From Gammaproteobacteria bacterium (lineage in GTDB: Bacteria; Pseudomonadota; Gammaproteobacteria; S012-40), in contig JAOUMY010000001.1 of NCBI GenBank assembly GCA_029881255.1, forward strand, positions 434,001 to 498,000: DNA of 64,000 nucleotides, given 5' to 3'. The position numbers and the translations under genes were made by a program. Numbering within the stretch: position 1 is the first letter of the stretch; every line of letters begins with the position of its first letter. The notes under the pieces are model-generated. The model worked only from the letters and a program-made list of their open reading frames with translations, did not search any database and was not told where the DNA came from. Shown here piece after piece: positions 8,916 to 24,138 of this stretch.

Positions 8916-9315
8916 CGGTTTCTGATTCCGCTGCCTGCGACAATTTTCGCTGTTTACGTTCTTTCAATACATGGCGTAAATCGACGAAATAGTAAATCAG
9001 AAAACTCATCACAATTACCCACGCAGCACCCGCTGGAATTCCCCAGTCGAACCATGGTCGTTCAAAACCAGGACGATTACCCCAAAATGGGAATGTTAGA
9101 CCTATTGCAACCAGCAAAAGCACAACAAAGATAGCGATAAACCAATATGGTATCGACACATCCGAATCTTTCATGCTTTCGATCATTTCCCAGTCTTCCA
9201 GCCCACGCTTATCATGGCGCTCTTTATCGTCCTTATAGCCAAAATTATCCTCGGGTTTTTCTCCCCAGCCGACTTCTTTGGTTGGACTAGGATTTTTAGA
9301 TTTTTCATCTACCAT
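8899..9315 (-). CDS. Two-helix membrane protein with PFWGNRP motif
   Basis: A 138-residue protein with a long charged N-terminus, helices near 56-76 and 91-111, and a charged tail. The first helix ends with TFPFWGNRPG. The subunit-like protein at 17097-17732 has the counterpart TMPIWGQRPN at the same place, which suggests homology and links this operon to the oxidase. The start codon overlaps the ccoG stop by one base (TAATG). No known family was recognised; an accessory or assembly subunit is the best guess. Confidence 0.75.
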   Translation of the reverse strand: MVDEKSKNPSPTKEVGWGEKPEDNFGYKDDKERHDKRGLEDWEMIESMKDSDVSIPYWFIAIFVVLLLVAIGLTFPFWGNRPGFERPWFDWGIPAGAAWVIVMSFLIYYFVDLRHVLKERKQRKLSQAAESETDEKNI

Positions 9316-10625
9316 TACTTTTCTCTCATTACAAAGTGGTTCATACGAGAAAATCCTTCCCAGCCGGAATCAGACTTTGCTCGTACAATAAAATTATACA
9401 TTCCTGGCGGAAGACTATCGTTCAGACGAAGAAATACATCCTGTCTACCCACAGAACTGAAATTGAGGGATTGGCTGCTAATTGAATATTGATCTTGCTC
9501 CAGGCCCTCAACTTCGAGCGTGAGCGCTGCAGGACGAAAGAGCTTAGAAGCAAAGTTAATTCGATATTCCTTCACCTGTGAGCCTTGATGGTTTTCAGAT
9601 TTATACAATGCCATATGATAGGGTTGATACGAGAACAATCCCCATGAAAACATAGTTATTCCTATAAGCATTGGCGGCAAAACCCAAAGAAAACGTATCC
9701 GGAAATGTGCTAAACGATGCATCGCATTCGAATGAATTTTATTTCTTCTTTCACCGAATCGGAATGATAGTAAGCCTGGTTCATTTTTCTTAGCATGCAT
9801 GGCATTACAGGCGGAAATGCACGCACCACAGTTTGTACAACTGTCGAACATATTTGTATTTTTTGGATCAATACCGACCATGCATTGTGTTTGGCAATAG
9901 CTGCATTTTTCGCAGTCCTTCTTACGCGAAGCGTCGTAGTCGATGTGAAGTGTTTCTTTCGTCTTGAACAAATATTGCCACATTCGGTATATGCACATAT
10001 AACGACAAACATATTGTCGAACAACCGAATAGTTCACAAATGCAATGAACACAAACACCATGTATATCCATCGTATGGAATAAGCGGCTTCAGAGGAATC
10101 CTGAAAGGTAAAAAAACCAAATACCTGTTTCGGTGGCACAAAGTACAGCAGTGGAATAATTGATATAACCATCGATACAAGCAAAATCAATAATCCGAGA
10201 ACAATCCAGTTAATTAAGTTGTTTTTGTGCGCCGCTATTTTAACGGTTTTGGCTTTTTCCCAATCAATCACAGCGCGTTTACCCAACATCTTTGAAGTCA
10301 ATGCATCCGCTACCGTAGAAAACGAATTCTGGGGGCACGCCCAACCACAAAATGCCGTACCAACGAACGAATAGAGGAGAATGAAGGAACACGCGATTGA
10401 CAACCAGAAACCAAATACAATCGCAAAATCTGAGAACCAAATTTGTCTGTCTAGAACGACAAAACCTGCGGAAACGTCAATTCTGAAAATACCTAGTGTA
10501 GGAATCAGGATTAACGCTAATATAAAACCTGTTTGAAAGGCTTTGCGCTTCCAACGCAAATTATCGGTTGGCGCAGAACCCTGGGTAATAACTGGGATTT
10601 TTGACAAAGCATCATTAGCACTCAT
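9315..10625 (-). CDS. ccoG: Cytochrome c oxidase accessory protein CcoG (FixG/RdxA family)
   Basis: A membrane-bound 4Fe-4S protein needed for cbb3-type oxidase maturation; in studied species CcoG is implicated in copper reduction during active-site assembly. It has several TM helices. CGWACPQNSFS is the family CGxxCPQ motif. Two ferredoxin-type clusters are formed by CEKCSYCQTQC and CTNCGACISAC. The C-terminal Ig-like domain ends near FVMREK. The start is taken at the ATG at 10625 (MSANDALS); the upstream alternatives give an unlikely hydrophobic leader. It is the first gene of a four-gene operon. The classical ccoH-ccoI-ccoS neighbours are absent here. Confidence 0.93.
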   Translation of the reverse strand: MSANDALSKIPVITQGSAPTDNLRWKRKAFQTGFILALILIPTLGIFRIDVSAGFVVLDRQIWFSDFAIVFGFWLSIACSFILLYSFVGTAFCGWACPQNSFSTVADALTSKMLGKRAVIDWEKAKTVKIAAHKNNLINWIVLGLLILLVSMVISIIPLLYFVPPKQVFGFFTFQDSSEAAYSIRWIYMVFVFIAFVNYSVVRQYVCRYMCIYRMWQYLFKTKETLHIDYDASRKKDCEKCSYCQTQCMVGIDPKNTNMFDSCTNCGACISACNAMHAKKNEPGLLSFRFGERRNKIHSNAMHRLAHFRIRFLWVLPPMLIGITMFSWGLFSYQPYHMALYKSENHQGSQVKEYRINFASKLFRPAALTLEVEGLEQDQYSISSQSLNFSSVGRQDVFLRLNDSLPPGMYNFIVRAKSDSGWEGFSRMNHFVMREK

Positions 10626-10770
10626 AGTGACCAATAATATCACAGGCACGCAAAAAACCGGCACACGCTACCATTTTAGTATTATTTTGTTGAAACACTC
10701 GGTTTCTTTCGCTAATATCAACAGCTGCCTACCTACGTAGCAATGACAGTACAAATCTGGGGGATAGAAA

Positions 10771-10942: not shown

Positions 10943-13531
10943 CTAAAACACCCTGTAGGGCTCTAAGCTGCGGATTTTACTGGACAATTCCGCTCTTGCT
11001 GATTCGGTTTCAGCAACAGAGTAAATCTCTAGCAATGCATCCAAATGATCGGGTCTTATAGTTAGAACTTTTGCCAACACCTCTGATCTTTGCAGCCCAG
11101 CCGAATCACTTAAAAACAATGCATCCGCATATCGGAAGGAAACCCACCGATCACCAGGGTTTGCTTCATACGCAATTTTCAGCCACTCATAGGATTTCAT
11201 TGTGTCTCCCCTAATGTCGTAGAGGATTGAAGCTGCCAAAGCTCCAGTGGCATTATATCCCTGTTCAAAAAGGGCAACATCATAATCTGGAACATTCAAG
11301 GCTTGTATTGCTGACTCTAGATTTGGCCTTTCTTTCATTACCCACGATAGGGACGACAAAACGGGCGGAATCTTTGAAAAACGCAAATTTGGTAACTCAA
11401 ACTCAAGAACTGGCGACCATTCATTCTGTATAGGCTGGCTGTTTACCTTTGCTATTCCGACCCATCTACCAAGCCACGTAAACATCGTTTCGTTGCCAAG
11501 TACCTTCGCCCTTTGTTCCGCGTCCATTTCGATGAATTTTTTGTCTAATGTCGTTATCTCCACCGGTGACGTGGCAAAACCTACAAGCGCAAGTCGAAAT
11601 CCATCGAGAAACAGCCAATTGTTTTCGAAAACCTGAGCGAATGTGTTTAAGACAGTATTCAATCCTTTTTCATCGAATTGATTCAAAGCCAACCACTGAA
11701 CGAATACACCCTGATGAGTGAGCACATTCTTGGCTCGCATGAACTGTTGCATAGACAGCAAATTCCCACGACCAACAAGATCAGGGTGAAACAAATCACC
11801 AATAATTAAATCATACCGTTTTTCTGTCATTTTCAGGAAACGGCGCGCGTCATCTCTAATGATGTTAACCTTTTCGGCCGCGTTCAGATTAGCCAATGCG
11901 AAATAATTTGATGCCGCCTCTATGGCTCCCTGTGAAAGCTCTACTGCATCTATTTTTAAATTCCCTAAATCAACGAGAGGCGAAGTTGAAATTCCCGTAC
12001 CATAACCAAGAAACAAAACTGAATCGGGTTCAGGATGCAGAAGATAGGGTAGTCTCGATTGATTTCTTTGTGCGTGAATAGCGTCTTGTGAGGTAGATGC
12101 ATCCATACGCTGCAGATCATTCAATAGCAATCTTTCACCATCCGTTTTCTGCACAACATTTGTGGTCGTTATTGCATCTTCGTAAATGCTAAGTTCTTTA
12201 CTCTCACTATATACCCCTGGCATCATATTTTTCACTTCCGGAGGGAAGGACAGAAAAAGAATAAGCGGAATTAAGAAAGCACAAAGAAAAACATATGCAC
12301 GAGTACGCAACCATACGACATTAACCAAAAGAAAAATAACGGCAGCAAACCCTATGGTTTTCGCGACACCAAAAACCGGTATTAAAACAAACGCTGCAGC
12401 GAGCGCACCTAAGGCCGCCCCAAGCGAATTAACGCTGTACAAAATGACGGATTGATGAAGACGCAAATCCATGTGCTTAGCCAACAGAGGAAACCACAAA
12501 CCCAATAAGAATGTGACGGGTGCCGTAACAATGAAAAGCAGAATACCTTGACTGAATAATGCTTCAGCCATAGACGTATAATGCGCTGCGCCATTGAGTG
12601 CCGAAATTGGCTCAATCAGCCAAACAGATAACAACGCGAAAAATGCCACAAGAAAAGGAAAATACTTCAATATCGAGAGCTTGCTTATTCTTGGCGCAAG
12701 GAAACTCCCAAATGCAATACCTATTAGAAAGACAGCTATAAGCACCGCCAACACATATTCTGAACGTAGAAAAATCATTCCATAAAATCTAGTCCAGGCT
12801 ATCTGAAGAATTAATGACGCGAAACCAATCCCGGCATAGGCGAAAAGCGCGCCTTTAACAGATCCAAAATTGAGGCTTTTACTTTCAACCTCCGCTCTAG
12901 GGAATACAAATGAAATCAGAACAAAAGATGCACCGACTATAAATCCAAAAATGGCTATGAGTTTTAAAGAAACAATCCAGCCGAATGTAGGTAACAGGAT
13001 TAGCGGCAGCAGAACCCCAAGGACACCACCCAACGTATTACTTCCATAGATTATTCCCAGTGTAGAATTCGTTTTCTTCAGTGCCTGTAAGAATAGACTA
13101 AAACCACACCCAAGTAGCGTGGCCGGTACTGTCATAAGCAGCAGAACAGTGAAAATCTCTAGATTGATCCACGCCCCATAGGTCAGGTCACCGGTTGCGC
13201 TTTTACCGTCAATATAAAAAAGTAATTTGGGAAGAAGGAATGAGTAGATTGCTACAAAAATCTCAATCAAACCCAAATAAAAAAGCGGCCTCGCAATATT
13301 CGGTGCGAATTTTAATCCTAGCAATCCACCAAAACCGAGTCCAAACATAAATGAGGAAACCGTCAAGGGTATTCCTAAAATACTTACTCCAAAAAGAATA
13401 CCCGCAGATTTCGCCCAAAGTATTTCGTACGCGAGGGCGCTTGTGCCCGAAAGAAAATAGAGAATGAGAAGAACTGTAATTAACCAACCGGAGGTTCCCC
13501 CAGCAGATCTATGTACGTTTTTTGTAATCAC
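10943..13531 (-). CDS. Fused MFS-like membrane / spermidine-synthase-like protein with TPR tail
   Basis: About 860 residues. The N-terminal ~440 residues hold 12 or more hydrophobic helices in the arrangement of fused MFS/spermidine synthases. A Rossmann methyltransferase-like domain follows: LFLGYGTGIS (nucleotide loop), DAVELSQGAIEAA, RDDARRFL, GDLFHP and GVFVQWLALNQF. The usual aminopropyltransferase GGGDG loop and acidic catalytic pair are not well kept, so polyamine synthesis is doubtful. The last ~130 residues look like TPR helices. The start is unclear: GTG at 13531 is preferred over TTG at 13555, and neither has a good ribosome-binding site. It is the last gene of the eight-gene oxidase-associated operon. 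Confidence 0.8.
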   Translation of the reverse strand: MITKNVHRSAGGTSGWLITVLLILYFLSGTSALAYEILWAKSAGILFGVSILGIPLTVSSFMFGLGFGGLLGLKFAPNIARPLFYLGLIEIFVAIYSFLLPKLLFYIDGKSATGDLTYGAWINLEIFTVLLLMTVPATLLGCGFSLFLQALKKTNSTLGIIYGSNTLGGVLGVLLPLILLPTFGWIVSLKLIAIFGFIVGASFVLISFVFPRAEVESKSLNFGSVKGALFAYAGIGFASLILQIAWTRFYGMIFLRSEYVLAVLIAVFLIGIAFGSFLAPRISKLSILKYFPFLVAFFALLSVWLIEPISALNGAAHYTSMAEALFSQGILLFIVTAPVTFLLGLWFPLLAKHMDLRLHQSVILYSVNSLGAALGALAAAFVLIPVFGVAKTIGFAAVIFLLVNVVWLRTRAYVFLCAFLIPLILFLSFPPEVKNMMPGVYSESKELSIYEDAITTTNVVQKTDGERLLLNDLQRMDASTSQDAIHAQRNQSRLPYLLHPEPDSVLFLGYGTGISTSPLVDLGNLKIDAVELSQGAIEAASNYFALANLNAAEKVNIIRDDARRFLKMTEKRYDLIIGDLFHPDLVGRGNLLSMQQFMRAKNVLTHQGVFVQWLALNQFDEKGLNTVLNTFAQVFENNWLFLDGFRLALVGFATSPVEITTLDKKFIEMDAEQRAKVLGNETMFTWLGRWVGIAKVNSQPIQNEWSPVLEFELPNLRFSKIPPVLSSLSWVMKERPNLESAIQALNVPDYDVALFEQGYNATGALAASILYDIRGDTMKSYEWLKIAYEANPGDRWVSFRYADALFLSDSAGLQRSEVLAKVLTIRPDHLDALLEIYSVAETESARAELSSKIRSLEPYRVF

Positions 13532-13536
13532 TGATT

Positions 13537-13893
13537 TCAGTAAGGATAAAACCAAACAATAGAGGTAACGGCATGGGCAACCGCTAAAAATACCGTAGCC
13601 CCCGCAGATAACATATGACCCACGAATAATTCTTTGCCATGCAATGCCATCGCAAGCCCCAATCCCGCCGTCAAAAAAATTAAAATCAGTAGTATAACGC
13701 CCATGATGAAAAGAATTTTATGCTTTTTTCCATCTTCATTACTGACAATGACTGAAACGTTCTGATTCATCGTTTCTTTATTGAACGAATCCATTATGGC
13801 GCTCGCCCCATTTGAATCTGCAAATATGGGCACAGGAGTAACAAGAATTAATATAGAAAATAGTACGGAGAACAAATTAGCTTTCAGTTTCAT
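13537..13893 (-). CDS. Secreted two-helix membrane protein of unknown family
   Basis: A 118-residue protein: a signal peptide ending near IFADS, a ~40-residue periplasmic stretch, then two helices, ILFIMGVILLILIFLTAG and the segment up to the WFYPY end. Histidines in MALHGKE, VGHML and VAHAVTS lie at the ends of or inside the helices and could bind heme or metal, but this is inference. It is in the operon between the 73-residue protein and the fused MFS protein. I do not recognise a family. Confidence 0.65.
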   Translation of the reverse strand: MKLKANLFSVLFSILILVTPVPIFADSNGASAIMDSFNKETMNQNVSVIVSNEDGKKHKILFIMGVILLILIFLTAGLGLAMALHGKELFVGHMLSAGATVFLAVAHAVTSIVWFYPY

Positions 13894-14150: not shown

Positions 14151-15209
14151 TCAATTAACATCTTTGGCAATTCGAAAGCCGTAGAAGTCAGATGTGAAAT
14201 TTGGCCAAGAAAAATTACGGTGGTAGGACGAGGTAGAAAAAGGATCACTTTTCCATGATCCGCCTCGCATTACTTTGTATCTTTCTTCCGTCTCGACAAA
14301 CTCAACCATACGCAAACTTCTTTCAGCCGCATCAACGGGAATTTGTGGCACCTTTGCTTTAAATAATGAATCGGATGCCTGGCTCCCTTCATAGGGAATT
14401 AAATCGTTAGCAACCCATTCCTGTACATTTCCCGCCATATCCATGACACCAAATGGACTTACACCTTGAGGATATTCAAATACTGACGATGTTGATCCCC
14501 TATTATAATAGGTATTAAGGTTCTTAGTATTCATTTGATCACCCCAAGGCCAGCGTCTTCCATCAGTTCCGCGCGCTGCTTTTTCCCATTCCGCTTCCGT
14601 AGGCAATCTACCACCTGCCCACGCAGCATACTTCGAAGCATCAAACCAAGTCACCATGGTTACCGGATGTGTTTCAACTCCTTCTGGAATTCTTCCATTT
14701 ACCCAATGAATCGGCGGTCTATGGCCAGTAGAAGCTACGAACTTGGCATATTGGGCGTTAGTAATGGGATATTTGGAAATTTGATATGCCTTAATCTCAG
14801 ACCTGAACGCAGGGCGATTTTGTTCATCCGATTTAGGATTATCCGTTCCCATCACGAATTCCCCGGACGGGATTGAAACAAGTTCCGCCAGAAGTGTCCA
14901 AACCTTATCTTCCACTAATTTATTTGCTTCATCGACAGAATAGGTTTCTTTGTGAGTCTCGCGTTTTTCGTGTCTATCGGAAATATATAGATCTTCACCA
15001 GCGGCGCGAATGTGGTTACTTTCTTTACTAAGGTCTATTCCCGCAAGGCTTCGCATTTGATTCATGCGGTTCGCACCCAATTCCAAAACGTGTATCGTAC
15101 CGGCTACTAGTGCAACTACAATACATGTAACGAAGGTAGCGCCAATAAATCTTTTACGAACTGCAATTTGCTCTGGCGATAACTTTCTATTTTTCACTAG
15201 CTCTGTCAA
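14151..15209 (-). CDS. Membrane-anchored FGE/SUMF1-fold protein lacking catalytic cysteines
   Basis: A 352-residue protein with one N-terminal TM helix (about 24-46) and a formylglycine-generating-enzyme-type domain facing the periplasm. Family motifs are GEFVMGTDNP, YPITNAQYAKFV, GGRLPTEAEWEKAARG, GVMDMAGNVQEWV and RVMRGGSW near the C-terminus. In true FGEs, RGGSW is followed by the two copper-binding cysteines. Here the segment reads KSDPFSTSSYHRN, and the only cysteine in the protein is inside the TM helix. Sulfatase activation is therefore very unlikely; a binding or structural role in the respiratory complex is more likely. It lies fifth in the eight-gene operon. Confidence 0.88.
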   Translation of the reverse strand: MTELVKNRKLSPEQIAVRKRFIGATFVTCIVVALVAGTIHVLELGANRMNQMRSLAGIDLSKESNHIRAAGEDLYISDRHEKRETHKETYSVDEANKLVEDKVWTLLAELVSIPSGEFVMGTDNPKSDEQNRPAFRSEIKAYQISKYPITNAQYAKFVASTGHRPPIHWVNGRIPEGVETHPVTMVTWFDASKYAAWAGGRLPTEAEWEKAARGTDGRRWPWGDQMNTKNLNTYYNRGSTSSVFEYPQGVSPFGVMDMAGNVQEWVANDLIPYEGSQASDSLFKAKVPQIPVDAAERSLRMVEFVETEERYKVMRGGSWKSDPFSTSSYHRNFSWPNFTSDFYGFRIAKDVN

Positions 15210-15212
15210 AGT

Positions 15213-15695
15213 TTACACCTCACTCTTATTGTTATTTTCAGGCGAAGACTCGTGTCGTTTATGCGTTTTTGATATGTGGCTTCGTCCGTACGTTCGCTTG
15301 ACGATCACTTCCCCAACGATACCGCCCACACCACAAGCTTCAACAGCCACTATGAGGATAAGAATCCAATATCCTATTGGAAGAACTGACACATCTGCAC
15401 CAAGTTGATTGGCTTCAGCATAGATATACTCAGGTATTCTAACAAGCAGAGGAGGAAAATACGCGATCATCTTCCCACCCAAACCGTATAACATTGAAAG
15501 GACTACACCAGCTATAAAGGGAACAAGAATGAGATCGATTATCCACAGTGGTGTGAATGTGCCGATAATTCCTTTAAACAACTCGAGTTCTATACCTGTT
15601 ACCTGGTCTCCAACGTAAATTATAATCGCGGCGACACATGTGACGATTGTTGCCACTAAAAAATCCAGCAATCTGGACTTCAGTTTATTTAACAT
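15213..15695 (-). CDS. Multi-helix membrane protein of the oxidase-associated operon
   Basis: A 160-residue protein with three or four hydrophobic segments, a periplasmic loop with EYIYAEANQLGADVS, and a basic, histidine-containing C-terminal tail. The ATG at 15695 is chosen; it overlaps the end of the cytochrome gene by 11 bases. The 29 codons upstream in this frame lie wholly inside that gene. The last helix region, VEACGVGGIVGEV, is glycine-rich. I do not recognise a family. Confidence 0.65.
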   Translation of the reverse strand: MLNKLKSRLLDFLVATIVTCVAAIIIYVGDQVTGIELELFKGIIGTFTPLWIIDLILVPFIAGVVLSMLYGLGGKMIAYFPPLLVRIPEYIYAEANQLGADVSVLPIGYWILILIVAVEACGVGGIVGEVIVKRTYGRSHISKTHKRHESSPENNNKSEV

Positions 15696-16182
15696 TTTCG
15701 TTGTAATCCAAACCAGTGAGCTTTTCGTATCTTCTTTTTTTTGTTTCTTCCAAATACCATTCTTCGACTTGTAAGCTAGCAATATATTTTGCTAGTGAGA
15801 TTCGATCTGTTTCTTGATAAGTTGCGAACGACGGATGGCGATACTCAGGCTTCAATCGACTCGGCAATATATCTTGTGGATTTTCTGCCGAAAAATACTC
15901 ATATAGCCATTTTTCATCTCGAAAATAGCCCATTCCATCTAATGGTGGCGCCGGAACTGCTTGAGTTAACTCTCTTGTCCCCCAAAGGCTATGGCAACTC
16001 TTACATTTACCATCCTTCATAATACGAGCCGCTTCTGAGGTAAGATTCTTGTCCGCTGTTGTATAAAAAGGTATACCAGGATCCGGCTCGGTCTCTTGTG
16101 ATTCCTTAGCGAATTTAATCGCTGCCAGAATTACAACGCTGACGAGCATTGCAATGAAAATACCTTTCTCACCTTTGCGCAT
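15685..16182 (-). CDS. Membrane-anchored monoheme cytochrome c
   Basis: A 165-residue protein. A short RKGEKG N-terminus is followed by one TM anchor (about 7-24) and a periplasmic domain with a single CKSCH motif, a PPLDGMGYFRDEKW segment and a class I-like helical tail, DRISLAKYIASL. It is paralogous to the 191-residue cytochrome at 22670-23245, with the same GEK-TM start, C-x-SCH, LDG-x-G and EW/KW order. It probably passes electrons to the oxidase core, perhaps in place of CcoP. Confidence 0.85.
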   Translation of the reverse strand: MRKGEKGIFIAMLVSVVILAAIKFAKESQETEPDPGIPFYTTADKNLTSEAARIMKDGKCKSCHSLWGTRELTQAVPAPPLDGMGYFRDEKWLYEYFSAENPQDILPSRLKPEYRHPSFATYQETDRISLAKYIASLQVEEWYLEETKKRRYEKLTGLDYNENVK

Positions 16183-16188
16183 GAAAAC

Positions 16189-16455
16189 TTACTTACTGCT
16201 CTTCTTTTTAGCTAAATATTCTTTACGTAATTTTTCCTGGGCTGCCTGAACCTCAACGGACTTTTGGAACTCCTCTGGATCCATCTTATCCTTGTCCTTT
16301 TCGTCGAAAACGACATATTTGATATCTTCATCAAATTGATCATTTTTAGCGGCCCAACGAAGCATAAATCCCGCGGCGATTAGAATACCAGCAGCAACAA
16401 CTAACCATACGTAAATTGTCCAACCGTCTGGTAAATTTTGAAAAAATTCGGCCAT
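16189..16455 (-). CDS. CcoS-like small membrane protein
   Basis: An 88-residue protein with one helix (about 14-34) followed by LRWAAKNDQFDEDIKYVVFDEKDKD. CcoS/FixS proteins, which help insert cofactors into cbb3 oxidases, have a very similar helix and then a W-A-x3-GQF-D-D pattern and an acidic strand. The tail here is longer (about 35 extra residues, lysine-rich and probably helical). Membership in CcoS is inferred from the motif and context. It would be the second classical cbb3 maturation factor here, besides CcoG. Confidence 0.6.
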   Translation of the reverse strand: MAEFFQNLPDGWTIYVWLVVAAGILIAAGFMLRWAAKNDQFDEDIKYVVFDEKDKDKMDPEEFQKSVEVQAAQEKLRKEYLAKKKSSK

Positions 16456-16467
16456 ACAAAACCTCTG

Positions 16468-16815
16468 CTAAATTAAATAGCCTTCTATTAGCTGAACCCA
16501 GCCAATAATAACCGCTAGCACAACGCCACCCATAATGGCACCAAACATAACCTTTTCACCTTTTTTCATTCCCGGTTTGCCTTTACGTGGCATATACAAC
16601 CAAATAATGAATGAAAAAAGAATCAGCGACAAAACTAAAAAAACAAAAATTCCGTAGCTAAATTTTTGAGACCGTAGCCCTTCGATGCTCATATCGATCC
16701 CAAAAACTAGATTTGGGTTCTCTTCGGCAACCATTTGGATGCCATTAATGAGGTAATGGGAAACATCAAAAATCAAAGAAAAGATGCTAATTATAAACTC
16801 TGCTAAATTACCCAT
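16468..16815 (-). CDS. Three-helix membrane protein with GEK motif
   Basis: A 115-residue protein from the ATG at 16815; a TTG 18 bases upstream is less likely. There are three hydrophobic segments, with the cytoplasmic linker RKGKPGMKKGEKVMFGAI before the third. The KxGEK-hydrophobic junction also occurs at the N-termini of the two anchored cytochromes of the locus. It is the first gene of the minus-strand eight-gene operon ending at 10943, and starts just beyond the bidirectional terminator. Function unknown. Confidence 0.65.
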   Translation of the reverse strand: MGNLAEFIISIFSLIFDVSHYLINGIQMVAEENPNLVFGIDMSIEGLRSQKFSYGIFVFLVLSLILFSFIIWLYMPRKGKPGMKKGEKVMFGAIMGGVVLAVIIGWVQLIEGYLI

Positions 16816-16891
16816 AGAACCCACAGATAACAAAAGAAATTACGCTGCTGAATTATACTATGAATAGCTACAATAGTCTGAGTTTTGAGCA

Positions 16892-17096: not shown

Positions 17097-17732
17097 TTAT
17101 TTCATGCTTGGCTTGCGAGAAAAATGGGGCAAGCGCTTAATCACGAGAACCATAGTCAACACGAAGTAGCTGACATAGAAAACGTCGATCGTGTAGCCCT
17201 GATCCCACCAAGGTTGAAGACGGGTACGAACGGTTTTACCACCTACATCGACCCAAGCGCCTTCGAAATTGGCAAGAACCAAGCGATCACCAAGAACCGT
17301 GTACCAGTTCAACGGGTATTGACCCCCGGCTTGAATTTCCTTGATACCCGGCGCGATATTCAAAAGATCATCCCAAGTTAAAGGATGACGCTCTAACGCA
17401 GCTTTGGTGCGGTCATCTGCCATGTCAAAAGCACGGTTTGAGACGTACTTGATTTTTTCGTCAGAAGTCGCAAGACGCTGCACTTCCGGAGAGTCCATCA
17501 AGGCAACAAAGTCCTTGTAGTTATCGGCGTTTGGACGTTGACCCCAGATAGGCATGGTCATCATGAACGCTGTCAAGATAATCAAAGCCATCAACAAAAC
17601 CATCGGCATAGGAAGGCGATTATTTGCTTCCCAAAGTCCGCCGTGCTTTTCATTGGCCCACAAGTCCAAAATTTCTTTCTGTTCCTGCTCGTCTGAGAGC
17701 GAAAACATCGGCTGATCAAATTTCCAACCCAT
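17097..17732 (-). CDS. Oxidase-cluster membrane subunit with WGQRP motif
   Basis: A 211-residue protein: cytoplasmic N-terminus (~43 residues), helix LPMPMVLLMALIILTAFM, the junction TMPIWGQRPN, a ~110-residue periplasmic domain with no cysteines, and a second helix near the end (FYVSYFVLTMVLVI) followed by a basic tail. GGGAGG precedes the ATG. It lies 14 bases after the ccoO-like gene. The two-helix plan and WG[QN]RP junction match the smaller protein at 8899-9315. No family was recognised; it is probably a structural subunit of the oxidase replacing CcoP in gene order, but it has no heme site. Confidence 0.75.
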   Translation of the reverse strand: MGWKFDQPMFSLSDEQEQKEILDLWANEKHGGLWEANNRLPMPMVLLMALIILTAFMMTMPIWGQRPNADNYKDFVALMDSPEVQRLATSDEKIKYVSNRAFDMADDRTKAALERHPLTWDDLLNIAPGIKEIQAGGQYPLNWYTVLGDRLVLANFEGAWVDVGGKTVRTRLQPWWDQGYTIDVFYVSYFVLTMVLVIKRLPHFSRKPSMK

Positions 17733-17746
17733 AGTCTCTTCCTCCC

Positions 17747-18703
17747 TTATTTCAATGCTGTCATGATCCAGTCGACCACAGCTCTGACTTCTGAGTTAGC
17801 AGCAGGCTCTGGTACTTCTGGAGCGTAGATACGCTTACCATGGAGGTAATCACTGTATTCAGCACGCCATTTGGCAAAATCAATCTTATTGCCATTTGCA
17901 TCGGTTTTACCCCAAAGGTAATCGAAACGTGGCATGATCGAATTTGGCTGAACAAGACGTGGATTGAAAAAGTGCATGTACATCCATTCTCTAGATGAGT
18001 TACGTGCTGCTACGTGCAGAAGGTCAGGAGCCTTACGGTCTGAACCAAAAGCGGTAGGCATTTCACCATTAAAGTCACCTAGATAAGGAGGCGCGCCGAA
18101 GTATTGCCAGTCCTGTGTCTGTTCTGGCAACAGCGTATGACACCACCAGCAACCCTCAGAGATGTAGATAGTTTTACCCTTACCTACATAACGTGAGTTA
18201 GCGTCACCACCAGTACGAAGTACCTGATCAGGCGTCCAACCGCGAGTAGCAGTTGCGTTTTCAACGTAGTCGATTTCTTCTCCGTTGAACTCACCTTTTG
18301 TGATCAGGAAAACTGCGCCTTGTGATGAATTGGCAGCTTTGATCTTACCAAGACTCAAGCTCAGCTCTTCAACGCCCTTACCCAATCCACCCGTGTGGTT
18401 AACACCGCTGGAAAAAGGGGTACCGGCTTGATAAACATAAGCTCTGACCGGTGGATCGATAGCCGCACCAGAAGCAGGATCCTTATTCAGAATCACTGTA
18501 ACGGGCTTACCTTCACCAGACACAGTCGGGTCTTCATAACTCCAACCTACAAGACGACCAACTGACAACTGCTTGTCCAGACCGACCCAGGTAGAAACAC
18601 CTGTACGGAAGTCATAGCCTGGAAACAGCAGCGTAATACACATTGAGAAACCAAGCATCAAACCAACGCCGGCTGCTCCAAGTTTGTGTTTTCTAAAAGC
18701 CAC
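17747..18703 (-). CDS. CcoO-like monoheme cytochrome c subunit with inserted domain
   Basis: A 318-residue protein with a GTG start preceded by GGGAGG. It has one N-terminal TM helix (about 9-28) and a heme domain from ~175 that follows CcoO: GKTIYISEGCWWCHTLLPEQ with CWWCH at 185-189, KAPDLLHVAARNSS, and NSIMPRFDYLW giving axial Met257. CcoO proteins are usually 200-240 residues. The extra length is a ~120-residue block between the helix and the heme domain (about 40-165), with no recognised motif. It would carry electrons into the CcoN-like subunit, and it is second of the two core genes, as in ccoNO. Confidence 0.88.
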   Translation of the reverse strand: MAFRKHKLGAAGVGLMLGFSMCITLLFPGYDFRTGVSTWVGLDKQLSVGRLVGWSYEDPTVSGEGKPVTVILNKDPASGAAIDPPVRAYVYQAGTPFSSGVNHTGGLGKGVEELSLSLGKIKAANSSQGAVFLITKGEFNGEEIDYVENATATRGWTPDQVLRTGGDANSRYVGKGKTIYISEGCWWCHTLLPEQTQDWQYFGAPPYLGDFNGEMPTAFGSDRKAPDLLHVAARNSSREWMYMHFFNPRLVQPNSIMPRFDYLWGKTDANGNKIDFAKWRAEYSDYLHGKRIYAPEVPEPAANSEVRAVVDWIMTALK

Positions 18704-18771: not shown

Positions 18772-20181
18772 TTAACGCTCGTATGCCATTTCGTGAGCAT
18801 AACGACCTTGTGGAACAACAGTACCTTCACGTGCAGTCATCCACATGTTGTACAACCAGACAACATTACCTGTGAATACCATGGTACCGCCAATCCAGCG
18901 AGCAATCATATATGGATGCTCTGCAACAACAACATCAATGTATGGCACTTCGTAGATCTTACCTGCGCCCTGAATCAAACCAGCGATGGTCATAGAGATC
19001 CAGTAGATACAGAAACCTACGATGAAGAACCAGTAGTGAAGGTTAGCAAGAGCCAGAGAGTACAGCTTACGACGCAGTACTGACTGTAGACCAAAGTAGA
19101 CCGCTGCTGTTTCCAGGAAGCTAGACATACCAAGTAGTGCCAAGTGAGCGTGAGCAACGATCCAACCAGTACCATGAACATACCAGTTAATTGCACGCGT
19201 TTGCTGGAAACCACCTTGCATGTTCAATGGAACAGCCAGAAGCACACCAGTGATGGCAAACTTGGTTTCCATATTTTCAACAAACAGTGTCCACTTACCT
19301 TTCATGGTCAACAAAATGTTGGCAACGAAAGCAACTGCTGGGATAAGAATCAATACACCTTCTACAGACGCGAAAGATTTCAACCACTCTGGCAGCGGAG
19401 CTGACATCAAGTGGTGAGAAGCTGGCGTAGAGTAGAACGCAATAATCGCCCAGAAGTGGAGATGCGCAATACGGTGAGAGTACAACGGATTACCAGTCAG
19501 CTTAGGCACAACGTAGTATGCAATCGCTGCAGCAACTGGCGTTATCCAAAGACCCAACACGTTATGCGCAAACCAGAACGTCAGATAGCCCTCAGTAAGA
19601 CCAGTCAGATTGAACAGCTCAGCTGATTGCCCAACCAGGAACACGATGATAACCATAAATACGCAAGCACCGAAGAACCAGTTGGTAATATAGATACCCT
19701 GGGTTTGGCGATGTGCAATAGTCATCCATACGTTAATTCCAAGTGGAACAAGCACGCCAAAGATAACAACCAAATCGATTGGCCAGATCAAGTCGTTATA
19801 TTCACGACCAGAAGTGAAGCCCAACCAAAGCAGGATCAAACCAAGGCTCAGACCGACATTCCAGAGGAATACAGTCCACAGTCCTAGCTTTTCAGACCAC
19901 AGCTTGGTGTTACCTAGTGCTGGCGTCATGTACATCATTGTCATACCGAACGCCATAGATATCCAGCCAACGATAACGGCAAGTACGTGTACCTGACGCA
20001 TGTGACCGAATGCAAACATTTCCGTACCGGTTACCCAGTCAGGGAAAGCCAGCTTGGCCGCATTGAACGAGCCCAGACCCGTACCAACAACAAACCAGAA
20101 AATAGATGAAAAGCCAAAGAATATAGTCGCAGATCCTGGTGGGATCTCGTCATTCCTGGCAAACAAATATTTCATCAGCAT
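18772..20181 (-). CDS. C-family heme-copper oxidase subunit I (CcoN-like, with NorB-like traits)
   Basis: A 469-residue protein with about 12 helices. Heme and copper ligands are all in place: His65 in RQVHVLAVIVGW (low-spin heme), His206 in FWFAHNVLG, His256-His257 in PASHHLMSAPLPEW, and His344/His346 in WIVAHAHLALLG. Tyr250, six residues before the His pair, matches the cross-linked active-site tyrosine of cbb3 oxidases and is absent in NO reductases. Helix VI lacks the NorB glutamate. Two points differ from standard CcoN: the segment NWYVHGTGWIVAHAH is closer to NorB, and Gln322 stands where CcoN has a conserved glutamate (FEGP becomes MQGG). GGGAGG precedes the start. Oxygen reduction is most likely; NO reduction cannot be excluded. 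Confidence 0.9.
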   Translation of the reverse strand: MLMKYLFARNDEIPPGSATIFFGFSSIFWFVVGTGLGSFNAAKLAFPDWVTGTEMFAFGHMRQVHVLAVIVGWISMAFGMTMMYMTPALGNTKLWSEKLGLWTVFLWNVGLSLGLILLWLGFTSGREYNDLIWPIDLVVIFGVLVPLGINVWMTIAHRQTQGIYITNWFFGACVFMVIIVFLVGQSAELFNLTGLTEGYLTFWFAHNVLGLWITPVAAAIAYYVVPKLTGNPLYSHRIAHLHFWAIIAFYSTPASHHLMSAPLPEWLKSFASVEGVLILIPAVAFVANILLTMKGKWTLFVENMETKFAITGVLLAVPLNMQGGFQQTRAINWYVHGTGWIVAHAHLALLGMSSFLETAAVYFGLQSVLRRKLYSLALANLHYWFFIVGFCIYWISMTIAGLIQGAGKIYEVPYIDVVVAEHPYMIARWIGGTMVFTGNVVWLYNMWMTAREGTVVPQGRYAHEMAYER

Positions 20182-20337: not shown

Positions 20338-20628
20338 TTACCAACCGGTGTTGTCGCGTTGTGTTTCGACTTCACCATGTTTCTTCATGGCAAGACCGAC
20401 GATAACTGAAAGTGCCAAACCGAACACAATCATTACGATATCGACGAAACCTGAGAATGTAGATGGAGAATATGCTTCCATTCCCCAACCACCCCAACTT
20501 TCATAAGGGCCTCGACCTACAGCGCACATAACTGCTGCGCCAAATACGCTTCCGTTACCCATTCCAGTCGTGAAGACTGCAACAAGGAGAACGAAAAACG
20601 TTTTTCCCAAAGTAAGTTTATTTTGCAT
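20338..20628 (-). CDS. 96-residue two-helix membrane protein, first gene of the core oxidase operon
   Basis: The start at 20628 is fixed by GGAGGGTGG just upstream; the earlier GTG has no ribosome-binding site. The N-terminal helix LGKTFFVLLVAVFTTGMG may be an uncleaved signal. A glycine/tryptophan-rich loop (YESWGGWGME) follows, then a second helix near residues 58-78 and a polar tail. No known family. It leads the operon that continues with the 29-residue protein and the CcoN- and CcoO-like subunits. Confidence 0.7.
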   Translation of the reverse strand: MQNKLTLGKTFFVLLVAVFTTGMGNGSVFGAAVMCAVGRGPYESWGGWGMEAYSPSTFSGFVDIVMIVFGLALSVIVGLAMKKHGEVETQRDNTGW

Positions 20629-20674
20629 TTCCACCCTCCATTTCGAGATGAACCCAGGCACGAACCCTTAAACA

Positions 20675-21163: not shown

Positions 21164-21619
21164 TTACTTAAAAACTCTCAGACGAGATTTCAATTCATCA
21201 AAATCCGAGTCTTTAGCAAATTGCCCTTTATGAAAAACAAATTTTTGAATCTTACCTGTTAAATCATTTCCACTGATGCCTATGCTTTTTCCAGCAAAAT
21301 CCGCAAAAAACCTTATATCCTTCACAAGGTCTATGGTGTCCTGATTCTTCAACTCCAAGGTCACGCCCTTCTTTGAAACATTAAGAGCTGTCGGAGATGA
21401 AGGTAACATCATGAGCCGTGTCTTAAAGATTCGGTTAAACGCTATCAGAAAAATCAACGTGGAGGCAAAAAGCAATACATACGTAAAAGAGGAATTACCT
21501 GAGAACCATAATTTTGACGCATAGGCCATAAGAAAAATAAAGGTAGGAACGTACAATATGAGATCCCACATTACACCTTTTTGATCTTTCGAAAGCTCAA
21601 ATCTATAAGGTTCAGCCAT
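21164..21619 (-). CDS. Membrane protein with two helices and a soluble beta domain
   Basis: A 151-residue protein: a cytoplasmic start, two close helices (about 18-38 and 46-64) and a ~85-residue cytoplasmic domain with alternating strands (ALNVSKKGVTLELKN, DIRFFADFAGKSIGI). The layout resembles small membrane proteins with PH-like domains; this is a topology comparison only. It is the last gene of the four-gene operon 23245-21164, six bases after the thioredoxin-like gene. Confidence 0.65.
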   Translation of the reverse strand: MAEPYRFELSKDQKGVMWDLILYVPTFIFLMAYASKLWFSGNSSFTYVLLFASTLIFLIAFNRIFKTRLMMLPSSPTALNVSKKGVTLELKNQDTIDLVKDIRFFADFAGKSIGISGNDLTGKIQKFVFHKGQFAKDSDFDELKSRLRVFK

Positions 21620-21625
21620 TTCTAT

Positions 21626-22129
21626 CTAACCCTGAGCCTTCTCCACAACTTTACCAATCATGTAGTCCATTTCCTGATAAAGAACTCGGCCCGGTTGTTT
21701 TGAGCGAACGATACCGTTTTTATCTATGATAAAAGTCCATGGATCACCCTTCACTTGATAGGTGACAAATGCCTCGGGATTCATATACTGATCCATGTGA
21801 AGAAAAGCAACCTGGTCGCCATATTTATCCATCATGGATTTGAGCATTTGCAACTGCTTATCACACACAGTACAGTGACCTGGTGTCGCGAACTCTAAAA
21901 CAATGGGTTTTCCCAACGCCAAAGCCTCGTCCACTGACAATTTGTACATGCGCGCATCGGGATAACGATAACTAGTTAGCCTACTAAGATCACCACCAAC
22001 GTCATCAGATTTCTTTGTACGCAGTGACGGAGCTTGCTGACCAATATTCAAGGCACCATCTGGCCGCTCAAGAGAACAAGAAACAAAGAGAGGAAGCCAT
22101 AAAATGACCGCAAGTTTAGCGAGATTCAT
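21626..22129 (-). CDS. Thioredoxin-fold lipoprotein
   Basis: A 167-residue protein from the ATG at 22129. The signal ends FVSC (lipidation at Cys18). The thioredoxin-like domain has the redox pair Cys86/Cys89 in ATPGHCTVCDKQL, the cis-proline loop KGDPWTFIIDKNG, and a typical C-terminal helix. It probably reduces heme-binding cysteines or delivers copper to the periplasmic side of the oxidase, as TlpA and Sco proteins do. The gene overlaps the CcoN-like fragment gene by 14 bases. Confidence 0.82.
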   Translation of the reverse strand: MNLAKLAVILWLPLFVSCSLERPDGALNIGQQAPSLRTKKSDDVGGDLSRLTSYRYPDARMYKLSVDEALALGKPIVLEFATPGHCTVCDKQLQMLKSMMDKYGDQVAFLHMDQYMNPEAFVTYQVKGDPWTFIIDKNGIVRSKQPGRVLYQEMDYMIGKVVEKAQG

Positions 22130-22646
22130 AGCCTTTTTCCCACCCTGTGCAGGTTTTGAATAAATTATATGCCCAAATACAATTCGCAAGAAGCACCAGA
22201 GTGCCAAAAATCCCCATAGTAGCCAACAACGGCTTTACAATATGCTCCACTTCCGCTGGAGTTGAATTCACACTTGCGATACCACCCATAATTCCAGCAA
22301 TGACAAAAAATACAACCATGCCGATCACGCCAATATTGTGCACCCAAAAGTGGGCTTTAACCAAGGTCAAACTATAGATTGGTCGCTTTATCAACCTGGG
22401 AACCACATAGTATACCGCAGCGAATATCGCCATTTCGACCCAACCCAGAAGATTAATATGGGTATGGCCTCGCACAATTAGATTTCCATGTAGGCGGTGG
22501 TCAACAAAATGCCGAAGCTCCGACACCCCACCCATGATTGCGCCCCACGAAAACCCGATCAGACTATATATAATGCAGGCGTAGATAAACCACAGCGTGT
22601 ATTTCCGATACACTATTTCCTGTTGATGTTCCCAAGGTTTAGACAT
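22116..22646 (-). CDS. Stand-alone domain resembling the C-terminal part of CcoN
   Basis: A 176-residue protein from the ATG at 22646; a GTG at 22670 that overlaps the previous stop (TAGTG) is also possible. It has four or five helices. The stretch IVRGHTHINLLGWVEM (His61 and His63), AAVYYVVPRLIKRPIYSLTLV and then AHFWVHNIGVIG closely follows the CcoN region that carries the heme b/b3 histidines and the next helices, including GIMGG. The CuB helices are missing, so it cannot be an oxidase alone. It may bind heme and act in assembly or as a quinol/cytochrome-linked subunit. It is second in the four-gene operon. Confidence 0.8.
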   Translation of the reverse strand: MSKPWEHQQEIVYRKYTLWFIYACIIYSLIGFSWGAIMGGVSELRHFVDHRLHGNLIVRGHTHINLLGWVEMAIFAAVYYVVPRLIKRPIYSLTLVKAHFWVHNIGVIGMVVFFVIAGIMGGIASVNSTPAEVEHIVKPLLATMGIFGTLVLLANCIWAYNLFKTCTGWEKGYESR

Positions 22647-22669
22647 AATTTTTTCCGAAATTTTAAACA

Positions 22670-23245
22670 CTACTCTTTATCAGACGAGGGCTTATCTCTG
22701 ATATCTTCATATTTGCCTTGCCAATCTTCGGGCGCCCACATTTTGACCATATTATCGATAAATTCTGATCTTTCCGGTGGCGGAACTTTAGCAACAGATG
22801 AACCCGCGTCTGCGCGCAATTCCGAAAGAAATATCGCGATTACTTTTCTATCTTCGGCTGGTATATCACTTACGTAAGCAGCTTCTTTAGGCGGAAGGCC
22901 ATGATCCAGCGTCGGTGAACCATAGACTTCTTCAGGCTTCAAAAGAAAACTTTCTATCCATTCGACCGTTCGCTTTGAACCAATCCCATCAAGTGACAAA
23001 CCCATGCTTGTTCCTGTACGTAAAGCTCTATGACACGAATTACAACGATTCTTTCGATAGAGCTCAGAGCCCACTTTTCCAGCTTCAGAAAAGTCGAAAT
23101 GTGTTAGCTGTTGAAACATTGGTTTTTCGGAATTCATACGATAGGTTTCAAGACCTATGTATGCGATAACAGCCAATAGAAAGAAGATACCGAATATAAT
23201 AAAAAGAATTTTTTCGCCGGATTTTAACGGCTGCTTTTTACCCAT
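22670..23245 (-). CDS. Membrane-anchored monoheme cytochrome c
   Basis: A 191-residue protein: KSGEKILF, one anchor helix (about 13-30), then a periplasmic domain with CNSCH in YRKNRCNSCHRALRTGT, LSLDGIGSKRTVEW and a helical end, RKVIAIFLSEL. A charged ~50-residue tail follows. It is a paralogue of the cytochrome at 15685-16182, and it is the first gene of the four-gene operon. It is likely an electron carrier anchored beside the oxidase or beside the CcoN-like fragment encoded next. Confidence 0.87.
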   Translation of the reverse strand: MGKKQPLKSGEKILFIIFGIFFLLAVIAYIGLETYRMNSEKPMFQQLTHFDFSEAGKVGSELYRKNRCNSCHRALRTGTSMGLSLDGIGSKRTVEWIESFLLKPEEVYGSPTLDHGLPPKEAAYVSDIPAEDRKVIAIFLSELRADAGSSVAKVPPPERSEFIDNMVKMWAPEDWQGKYEDIRDKPSSDKE

Positions 23246-23376: not shown

Positions 23377-24138
23377 TTAATGATCGTATGGTGTGAACAT
23401 ATTTCCATCAGAATAAAAAGATGCATTTGTCAGGTAAGTAGCTGCATTATGAATGTCTTCGTCAGTCATATTGCGTGCAACTTTCTGCATCTGGCTTAAT
23501 GGGTCGTTAGTACGACTTCCATCGCGCCACTTCTTCAACTGGTTTACCAGATATACATACTTCTGCTGGCCAATTTGTGGATATACCGGAGGCGCACCGC
23601 GTCCATTGTAGCCATGACAGGCTTTACAAGCTGGAACCGGTTTGGCTCTAGTACCCTGACCAAACTCAACAAGAGACTTGCCTTTGTGCGTCGCACCGAC
23701 CTCAATCCCTTGCTCTTTGAGAGCATTCATATCAGAGCCTTTCCACTCGTTGCCTTTCTTCTGTGTAGCCTTAAGACTTTCCAGATAAGTCGCAACATCG
23801 TCGCGGTCCTGAGGACTCAAACCTTTGGCATTCGCGTTCATAACAAACATGGTGGTATCCATACGCTTGTCTGTCGCGAAATCCTCAAGTTGCTTTCTCA
23901 GGAAAACGTGAAATTGTCCTGCAATGCGTGGCGTACCCATTGCGTCGTCTCCTGTACCATCCTGACCATGGCATGAAGAACAAGCAGGCACGTCGCCTTT
24001 ACCATTAAAAAATATACTTTTACCGTTAGCAATGTTGCCCGTACCTTTTGGATACTGGGCAGAAGACATCGCTACCGACGGCACTACAATGCTCGCAACA
24101 AATGCTGCCGCCGAAATAGCCGTTATAAAACGTCTCAT
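23377..24138 (-). CDS. Diheme cytochrome c4-type protein
   Basis: A 253-residue periplasmic protein with a signal peptide (MRRFITAISAAAFVASIVV...AMSS) and two class I cytochrome domains. The first has CSSCHGQDGTGDDAMGTPRIAGQ; the second has CKACHGYNGRGAPPVYPQIGQQ. Likely axial methionines lie in the AKGLSP-preceding MNANA region and in RNMTDEDI. Cytochromes c4 donate electrons to cbb3-type oxidases. It is strongly bounded by its own terminator and preceded by a microprotein gene, so it forms a separate transcript at the head of the locus. Confidence 0.93.
   Translation of the reverse strand: MRRFITAISAAAFVASIVVPSVAMSSAQYPKGTGNIANGKSIFFNGKGDVPACSSCHGQDGTGDDAMGTPRIAGQFHVFLRKQLEDFATDKRMDTTMFVMNANAKGLSPQDRDDVATYLESLKATQKKGNEWKGSDMNALKEQGIEVGATHKGKSLVEFGQGTRAKPVPACKACHGYNGRGAPPVYPQIGQQKYVYLVNQLKKWRDGSRTNDPLSQMQKVARNMTDEDIHNAATYLTNASFYSDGNMFTPYDH

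Follow-up and report, generated by a model that had tools for sequence, protein, structure and literature searches.

A separate branch of cbb3-like (C-family) heme-copper oxidases in a conserved gene block shared by several lithotrophic lineages

Introduction

The best described relatives of the oxidase presented here are the classic cbb3 oxidases (CcoNOQP; Pseudomonas stutzeri, 3MK7) and the cNOR nitric oxide reductases (NorB; 3O0R and 4XYD). C-type oxidases have an alternative K-channel in which Tyr-II is combined with a Tyr in the position of Ser-291 and a Ser in that of Thr-351, and the NO reductases are recognized by the motifs H-X-Arom-X-E and HH-X-Arom-Arom-X17-E (Sousa et al. 2011, PMC3084760); this classifier was the only source found in a literature search on the numbering of C-family channel residues. 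Two forms of cbb3 oxidase, “proximal” and “distal,” have been described in Zetaproteobacteria and Gallionellaceae (PMC7029218, PMC10734462), and the two subtrees (Ducluzeau et al. 2008) are also reported for Sideroxydans ES-1. The latter has two cbb3 clusters of differing subunit composition, one of them with a Cyc1 homologue (PMC8788666), “Ferrovum” JA12 has subunits I and II only, with cytochromes c nearby (PMC4725956), and a cbb3 oxidase is reported for “Ca. Nitrotoga fabula” (PMC6050957). “Ca. Tenderia electrophaga” expresses a non-canonical complex IV at some of the highest levels of any of its genes, and its region of synteny with Mariprofundus contains a c4 Cyc1 and a polyferredoxin (PMC5371394).

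Here, we describe a block of genes in a stretch of 64,000 nucleotides of gammaproteobacterial DNA (the window). Its CcoN-like subunit I is, with a probability that we put at roughly 0.76, the catalytic core of a distinct C-family (cbb3-like) branch, which would serve as the O2-reducing terminal oxidase of high-potential lithoautotrophs. The system shares with classic cbb3 oxidases the six His ligands, the helix VII Tyr, the 12-transmembrane-helix (TM) fold, a mono-heme subunit of the CcoO type, and a weakly CcoS-like protein, but it differs in sequence (ca. 30% identity), in many otherwise conserved residues, in the lack of CcoP, in an extra domain of the CcoO-like subunit, and in its accessory genes. 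It bears on the question of how high-potential electrons are turned into proton-motive force by neutrophilic iron oxidizers, Nitrotoga, and cathode-growing bacteria; the block, which several unrelated lithotrophic lineages share, may serve as a marker of this step and may encode the enzyme responsible.

Conserved gene block

Up to 16 genes kept the same neighbours in nearly the same order across 83 loci. Many of the cases missing from these synteny counts correspond to contig ends, and a few counts are inflated by weak cross-hits, of the half-size query to full-length subunit I and of the two mono-heme cytochromes to each other. In the window, the block consists of the following genes:

10943..13555, minus strand: multi-TM protein with a spermine/spermidine-synthase-like domain, 870 aa (61/83 loci)
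13537..13893, minus strand: small membrane protein, 118 aa (63/83 loci)
14151..15209, minus strand: 352-aa protein with a hydrophobic N terminus followed by an FGE-sulfatase (SUMF1-like) domain (68/83 loci)
15213..15782, minus strand: membrane protein, 189 aa (67/83 loci)
15685..16182, minus strand: membrane-anchored mono-heme cytochrome c (CKSCH), 165 aa (76/83 loci)
16189..16455, minus strand: FixS/CcoS-like small protein, 88 aa, a weak match that falls slightly short of the Pfam cut-off (75/83 loci)
16468..16833, minus strand: small membrane protein of no known family, 121 aa (73/83 loci)
17097..17732, minus strand: putative membrane subunit, 211 aa, apparently with two TM stretches and without a heme motif or a Pfam match (79/83 loci)
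17747..18703, minus strand: CcoO-like subunit II, 318 aa, with an N-terminal TM helix, an extra domain at about 60-172, and a mono-heme c domain (CWWCH) (83/83 loci)
18772..20181, minus strand: CcoN-like subunit I, 469 aa from ATG to stop, with 12 predicted TM helices; the gene under study
20338..20661, minus strand: small membrane protein directly upstream of subunit I, 107 aa (81/83 loci)
21164..21619, minus strand: membrane protein, 151 aa (60/83 loci)
21626..22207, minus strand: thioredoxin-fold protein with a CTVC motif, 193 aa (59/83 loci)
22116..22670, minus strand: half-size subunit I homologue, 184 aa, matching the C-terminal part of COX1 only (separate genes in 59 aligned sequences)
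22670..23245, minus strand: membrane-anchored mono-heme cytochrome c (CNSCH), 191 aa (79/83 loci, some of them weak matches to the 165-aa cytochrome)
23377..24138, minus strand: periplasmic diheme cytochrome c4-like protein with two CXXCH motifs, 253 aa (54/83 loci)

The heme domain of the CcoO-like protein matches CcoO/FixO (61.5 bits against FixO, for a cut-off of 29.6), and the complete protein scores below the NCBIfam ccoO cut-off. It has some 100 additional residues between the TM helix and the heme domain; a fold search with this extra domain, the model of which is confident only at about 70-170, gave no significant PDB match. No diheme CcoP was found near subunit I in the clusters inspected, where the only cytochromes were the mono-heme ones and the c4-like protein, apart from a distant ORF with five CXXCH motifs in one of them. 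The 165-aa cytochrome is a candidate functional substitute for CcoP, and the c4-like protein is a candidate electron donor of the Cyc1 type. Another contig of the same genome carries an ordinary ccoN, followed by ORFs with the sizes of a mono-heme CcoO (237 aa) and a diheme CcoP (284 aa), with a 477-aa ORF behind them. Since this canonical ccoNOP cluster coexists with the block, the oxidase of the latter constitutes a second, different system.

As for the remaining genes, the thioredoxin-fold protein is possibly a metal or redox assembly factor, and the FGE-sulfatase-domain protein, strictly syntenic with the oxidase, may modify one of its subunits; we know of no such modification in any oxidase. 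The half-size subunit I homologue keeps two invariant His equivalent to H344 and H346 of helix X, and its count of 83/83 loci partly reflects matches to the CcoN-like gene itself. Two further half-size COX1 matches lie elsewhere in the genome (C4:275749 and C1:1022477).

Subunit I and its active site

The ORF at 18772-20181 is a real gene, matching Pfam COX1 with 245 bits and the NCBIfam ccoN equivalog with 216.5 bits, below the curated cut-off of 583. Its closest relatives of known structure are CcoN chains of cbb3 oxidases, such as 3MK7. As the sequence-only reading had pointed out, the six ligand His and the active-site Tyr align with those of CcoN: H65, H206, H256, H257, H344, and H346 correspond to H60, H207, H257, H258, H345, and H347 of P. 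stutzeri, and Y250 corresponds to Y251. The replacement of the CcoN glutamate noted there was likewise confirmed by alignment, with Q322 at the place of E323. In helix X, residues 332-346 read NWYVHGTGWIVAHAH, that is, HGT...AHAH. All six His, Tyr250, Gln322, His336, and Thr338 were invariant in 118 of 118 distinct family members, and Gly337, which stands for Tyr338 of the classic enzyme, was present in 116, with Ala in the other two. Because of this invariance, the residues observed cannot be attributed to chance or sequencing error. The active-site Tyr is the one in helix VII (Tyr-II), and the helix VI position is occupied by Gly.

The structure was also modelled, as that reading had proposed. 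An AlphaFold2 model of subunit I built from 42 sequences (pLDDT 87, pTM 0.90) had 12 long helices, and a Foldseek search against the PDB retrieved first CcoN (TM score 0.87-0.89), then NorB (0.79-0.82), and then A/B-type oxidases. The predicted 12-TM fold is therefore closest to that of CcoN; since CcoN sequences were part of the input alignment, the model supports the fold and is not an independent test of membership.

Phylogenetic position

A homologue search covering 95 related genomes and GTDB contigs recovered a compact set of subunit I sequences, most of them 70 to 93% identical and the most distant sampled member at ca. 55%. The next matches were canonical CcoN at about 30 to 33% identity, and nothing sampled fell between 33 and ca. 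54%. In trees for which CcoN was sampled from Pseudomonadota only, the branch members were monophyletic (support of 100/99 with outgroups), and the branch and CcoN were joined apart from cNOR plus qNOR and from the A/B oxidases (99/91 with outgroups, 95/89 in a second tree). A sister relation of the branch to NOR is disfavoured rather than formally rejected, a clade of the two being 4.2 log units worse (p-AU of 0.09, thinned set).

Within the C family, the sampled Gammaproteobacteria and a Paraburkholderia plasmid also provided another deep CcoN branch of “long” proteins (ca. 550 aa; L138 and L143 to L146), of which the plasmid copy lies in a less complex cluster that includes a P-type ATPase. 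Like the branch described here, long CcoN has Gln at 322, AHAH in helix X, the helix VII Tyr, a lost Ser283, and a deep position of its own, but it keeps Ser240 and Tyr317, reads HFT and not HGT, has a longer N terminus, and is only ca. 32% identical. When outgroups and the longest branches were removed, classic and long CcoN made up one side of a split supported at 94/79. Neither a grouping of the branch with long CcoN (p-AU of 0.42) nor one with classic CcoN (p-AU of 0.34) was rejected, and these two orders and the one with the branch deepest were not separable (p-AU of 0.34 to 0.42). The best tree places the branch outside the sampled CcoN, which come from Pseudomonadota only, with a sister position to classic or long CcoN not rejected; a firm placing as the deepest C-family branch was dropped for this reason.

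The sequence-only reading had proposed a deep branch between cbb3 oxidases and cNOR. That the branch is its own and is not nested in the sampled classic CcoN has held, but the tree joins it to CcoN and not to NOR. The two outcomes named there as arguing against it did not appear among the sampled sequences: besides the absence of nesting, Gln322 occurred in 0/25 classic CcoN, and HGT occurred in 0/31 CcoN of any kind. Altogether, sequence comparisons support the view that subunit I belongs to a deep, separate, and monophyletic lineage of C-family heme-copper oxidases and is not an ordinary CcoN. It could be argued that subunit I is no more than a divergent member of the ordinary CcoN, working and assembled as in any cbb3 oxidase, with its oddities due to drift; it has the same ligands and Tyr, its closest database and structure matches are CcoN, published genomes of iron oxidizers and Nitrotoga call their oxidases simply cbb3, and a position as sister to long or classic CcoN was not rejected. 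We consider this unlikely given the NCBIfam score, far under the ccoN cut-off, the identity of only ca. 30 to 33%, the strongly supported branch, the lack of CcoP, and the canonical ccoNOP cluster kept by the same genome, while the many strictly conserved replacements argue against drift.

Comparison with nitric oxide reductases

Subunit I had been read from its sequence as a mixture of cbb3 and cNOR traits. We compared 23 branch members with 31 CcoN, 29 cNOR, 4 qNOR, and 3 outgroup sequences in a joint alignment, which did not support the mixture. cNOR is similar to the branch in fold, His ligands, and the Gly of the HGT motif, but differs in its two glutamate motifs, in the Tyr position, in having Trp at 322, and in its NorC partner and NorQD. 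In subunit I, both motifs are absent: residues 206-210 are HNVLG, where H-X-Arom-X-E would be expected, and residues 256-260 are HHLMS in place of HH-X-Arom-Arom-X17-E. The branch keeps Tyr250 where cNOR has S or T. The absence of the NOR motifs together with the presence of the oxidase Tyr indicates an active site of the oxygen-reductase type.

Gln322 was ruled out as a NOR trait, position 322 being Trp in 28/29 cNOR and Gln being absent from NOR in the alignment; outside the branch, Gln was found in all five long CcoN and in one further divergent CcoN. The NorB-like helix X stood up only in part. HGT is indeed present, and Gly337 coincides with the Gly of 29/29 cNOR, at a position with Y or F (one L) in CcoN. 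However, H-x-T-x5-H-x-H is common to the whole superfamily, and one of the three A/B-type outgroups (L140) also has Gly there, so that HGT is ruled out as a motif exclusive to NOR. Gly337 is thus the sole cNOR-like residue of the branch.

A hybrid with nitric oxide reductase is therefore not supported by the sequence. That the enzyme reduces NO, or both O2 and NO as a genuine transitional form linking cbb3 and cNOR, seems to us very improbable; we reject it because of the motifs and, less firmly, because of the phylogeny. Gly337 speaks for such an enzyme, as do the p-AU value of 0.09 for a grouping with NOR and the fact that no cNOR was found by similarity in the window genome, against which stand the missing glutamate motifs, Tyr250, a Gln322 foreign to NOR, and the scanned genes of the block, among which neither NorC nor NorQ was seen. 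In addition, several genomes of family f117 carry both this oxidase and a cNOR. The genomes of this family (L174 to L180) have a divergent NorB branch, ca. 37 to 41% identical to plasmid cNOR and in some cases found alongside the oxidase.

Proton-path residues

Several residues that are invariant in classic CcoN (P. stutzeri numbering, followed in parentheses by the numbering of the window protein) are replaced in the branch: Tyr237 by His (His236), Ser240 by Gly (position 239, Ala in the window), Ser283 by Ala (Ala282), and Tyr317 by Ala (Ala316). A second His, His240 in window numbering, has been gained, and like His236 it is invariant in the branch. Tyr223, His243, Asn289, and Tyr251 (P. 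stutzeri numbering) are kept. Alignment with an A-type sequence identified the C-type K-channel Ser as Ser283 and the Tyr as Tyr223. The latter is retained (Y222), and the Ser is Ala282 in 23/23 aligned members, which leaves the K-channel signature incomplete. This Ser is also lost in long CcoN (Val), where Ser240 and Tyr317 are kept.

With several of the invariant polar residues of classic CcoN missing, protons may enter the branch enzymes by a modified route, and the loss of S240, S283, and Y317 could mean that delivery through the known route is impaired or absent. Because classic invariants are invariantly replaced, the branch provides a natural test of which residues are needed for cbb3 proton uptake. 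As tested here, it would work like a cbb3 oxidase but is not to be filed as canonical cbb3/CcoN, given that the K-channel Ser and CcoP are missing and the NCBIfam score is too low.

The same losses could be taken to indicate a complex of the same fold with another main role, either a non-pumping, O2-scavenging oxidase or a composite enzyme with the half-size subunit I, which is syntenic, has two invariant His, and is accompanied in the block by many uncharacterised conserved membrane proteins. We give this little credence: the invariant catalytic residues fit a main terminal oxidase, as do published findings that iron oxidizers and Tenderia express cbb3-type oxidase genes at high levels, if these concern the same oxidase, and nothing in the block is direct evidence of a composite. 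A more specific version of the preferred reading is plausible, though less likely than not: a separate C-family subtype for high-potential lithotrophy with a proton path unlike the cbb3 K-channel and new subunits replacing CcoP, in which a dedicated half-size subunit I would form a second heme-binding unit.

Carriers and proposed electron path

Named carriers of the branch include Gallionella, Sideroxydans, “Ca. Nitrotoga,” and Ferrovaceae, as well as many gammaproteobacterial MAGs with labels such as Ectothiorhodospiraceae or Chromatiaceae; Biocath_Gamma_008 is one of these MAGs. The branch is already present in published genomes under the label cbb3, and two cbb3 subtypes have already been reported for iron oxidizers. 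Judging from gene content rather than sequence, the operon in the papers cited above is likely the block described here. In the proximal/distal pair, as here, organisms of similar kinds contain two cbb3 clusters that differ in their subunits, and one cluster is accompanied by a Cyc1 homologue; by description rather than sequence the branch is probably one of these two subtrees. The residue changes, the half-size subunit, and the conserved block are not discussed in the reports cited here on proximal and distal cbb3 oxidases.

RuBisCO was found in 18/20 relatives with the branch versus 31/75 without it (p = 1e-4, a statistic that ignores phylogeny). Outside the window's own family, the figures were 7/8 carriers versus 30/74 non-carriers (p = 0.02, again ignoring phylogeny). 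Nitrotoga oxidizes nitrite, and therefore no single electron donor is implied for the branch.

A literature search returned no enzymology of the branch. In the mechanism that we propose, electrons at high potential, from Fe(II), nitrite, or cathodes, would arrive in the periplasm and pass from the c4-type diheme cytochrome to the membrane mono-heme cytochromes, namely, the CcoO-like subunit and, taking the role of the diheme CcoP, the 165-aa cytochrome. From there they would reach the low-spin heme b and the heme b3/CuB site, at which O2 would be reduced to water, with Tyr250 as the presumed cross-linked active-site tyrosine and protons entering subunit I by the putative modified route. The c4-like protein and the two mono-heme membrane cytochromes within a conserved block, together with the identity of the carriers and the frequency of RuBisCO among them, fit this electron path and a lithotrophic role.

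Regarding the surroundings and arrangement of the block, a polyferredoxin-like gene with Fer4 (Fe-S) domains adjoins it in the window (9315-10664, minus strand); a polyferredoxin is likewise reported from the region syntenic between Tenderia and Mariprofundus (PMC5371394). In two MAG loci (L087 and L089), the block is rearranged, with the genes of the FixS-like protein and the 165-aa cytochrome inverted upstream and the c4 and half-size subunit genes following the oxidase.
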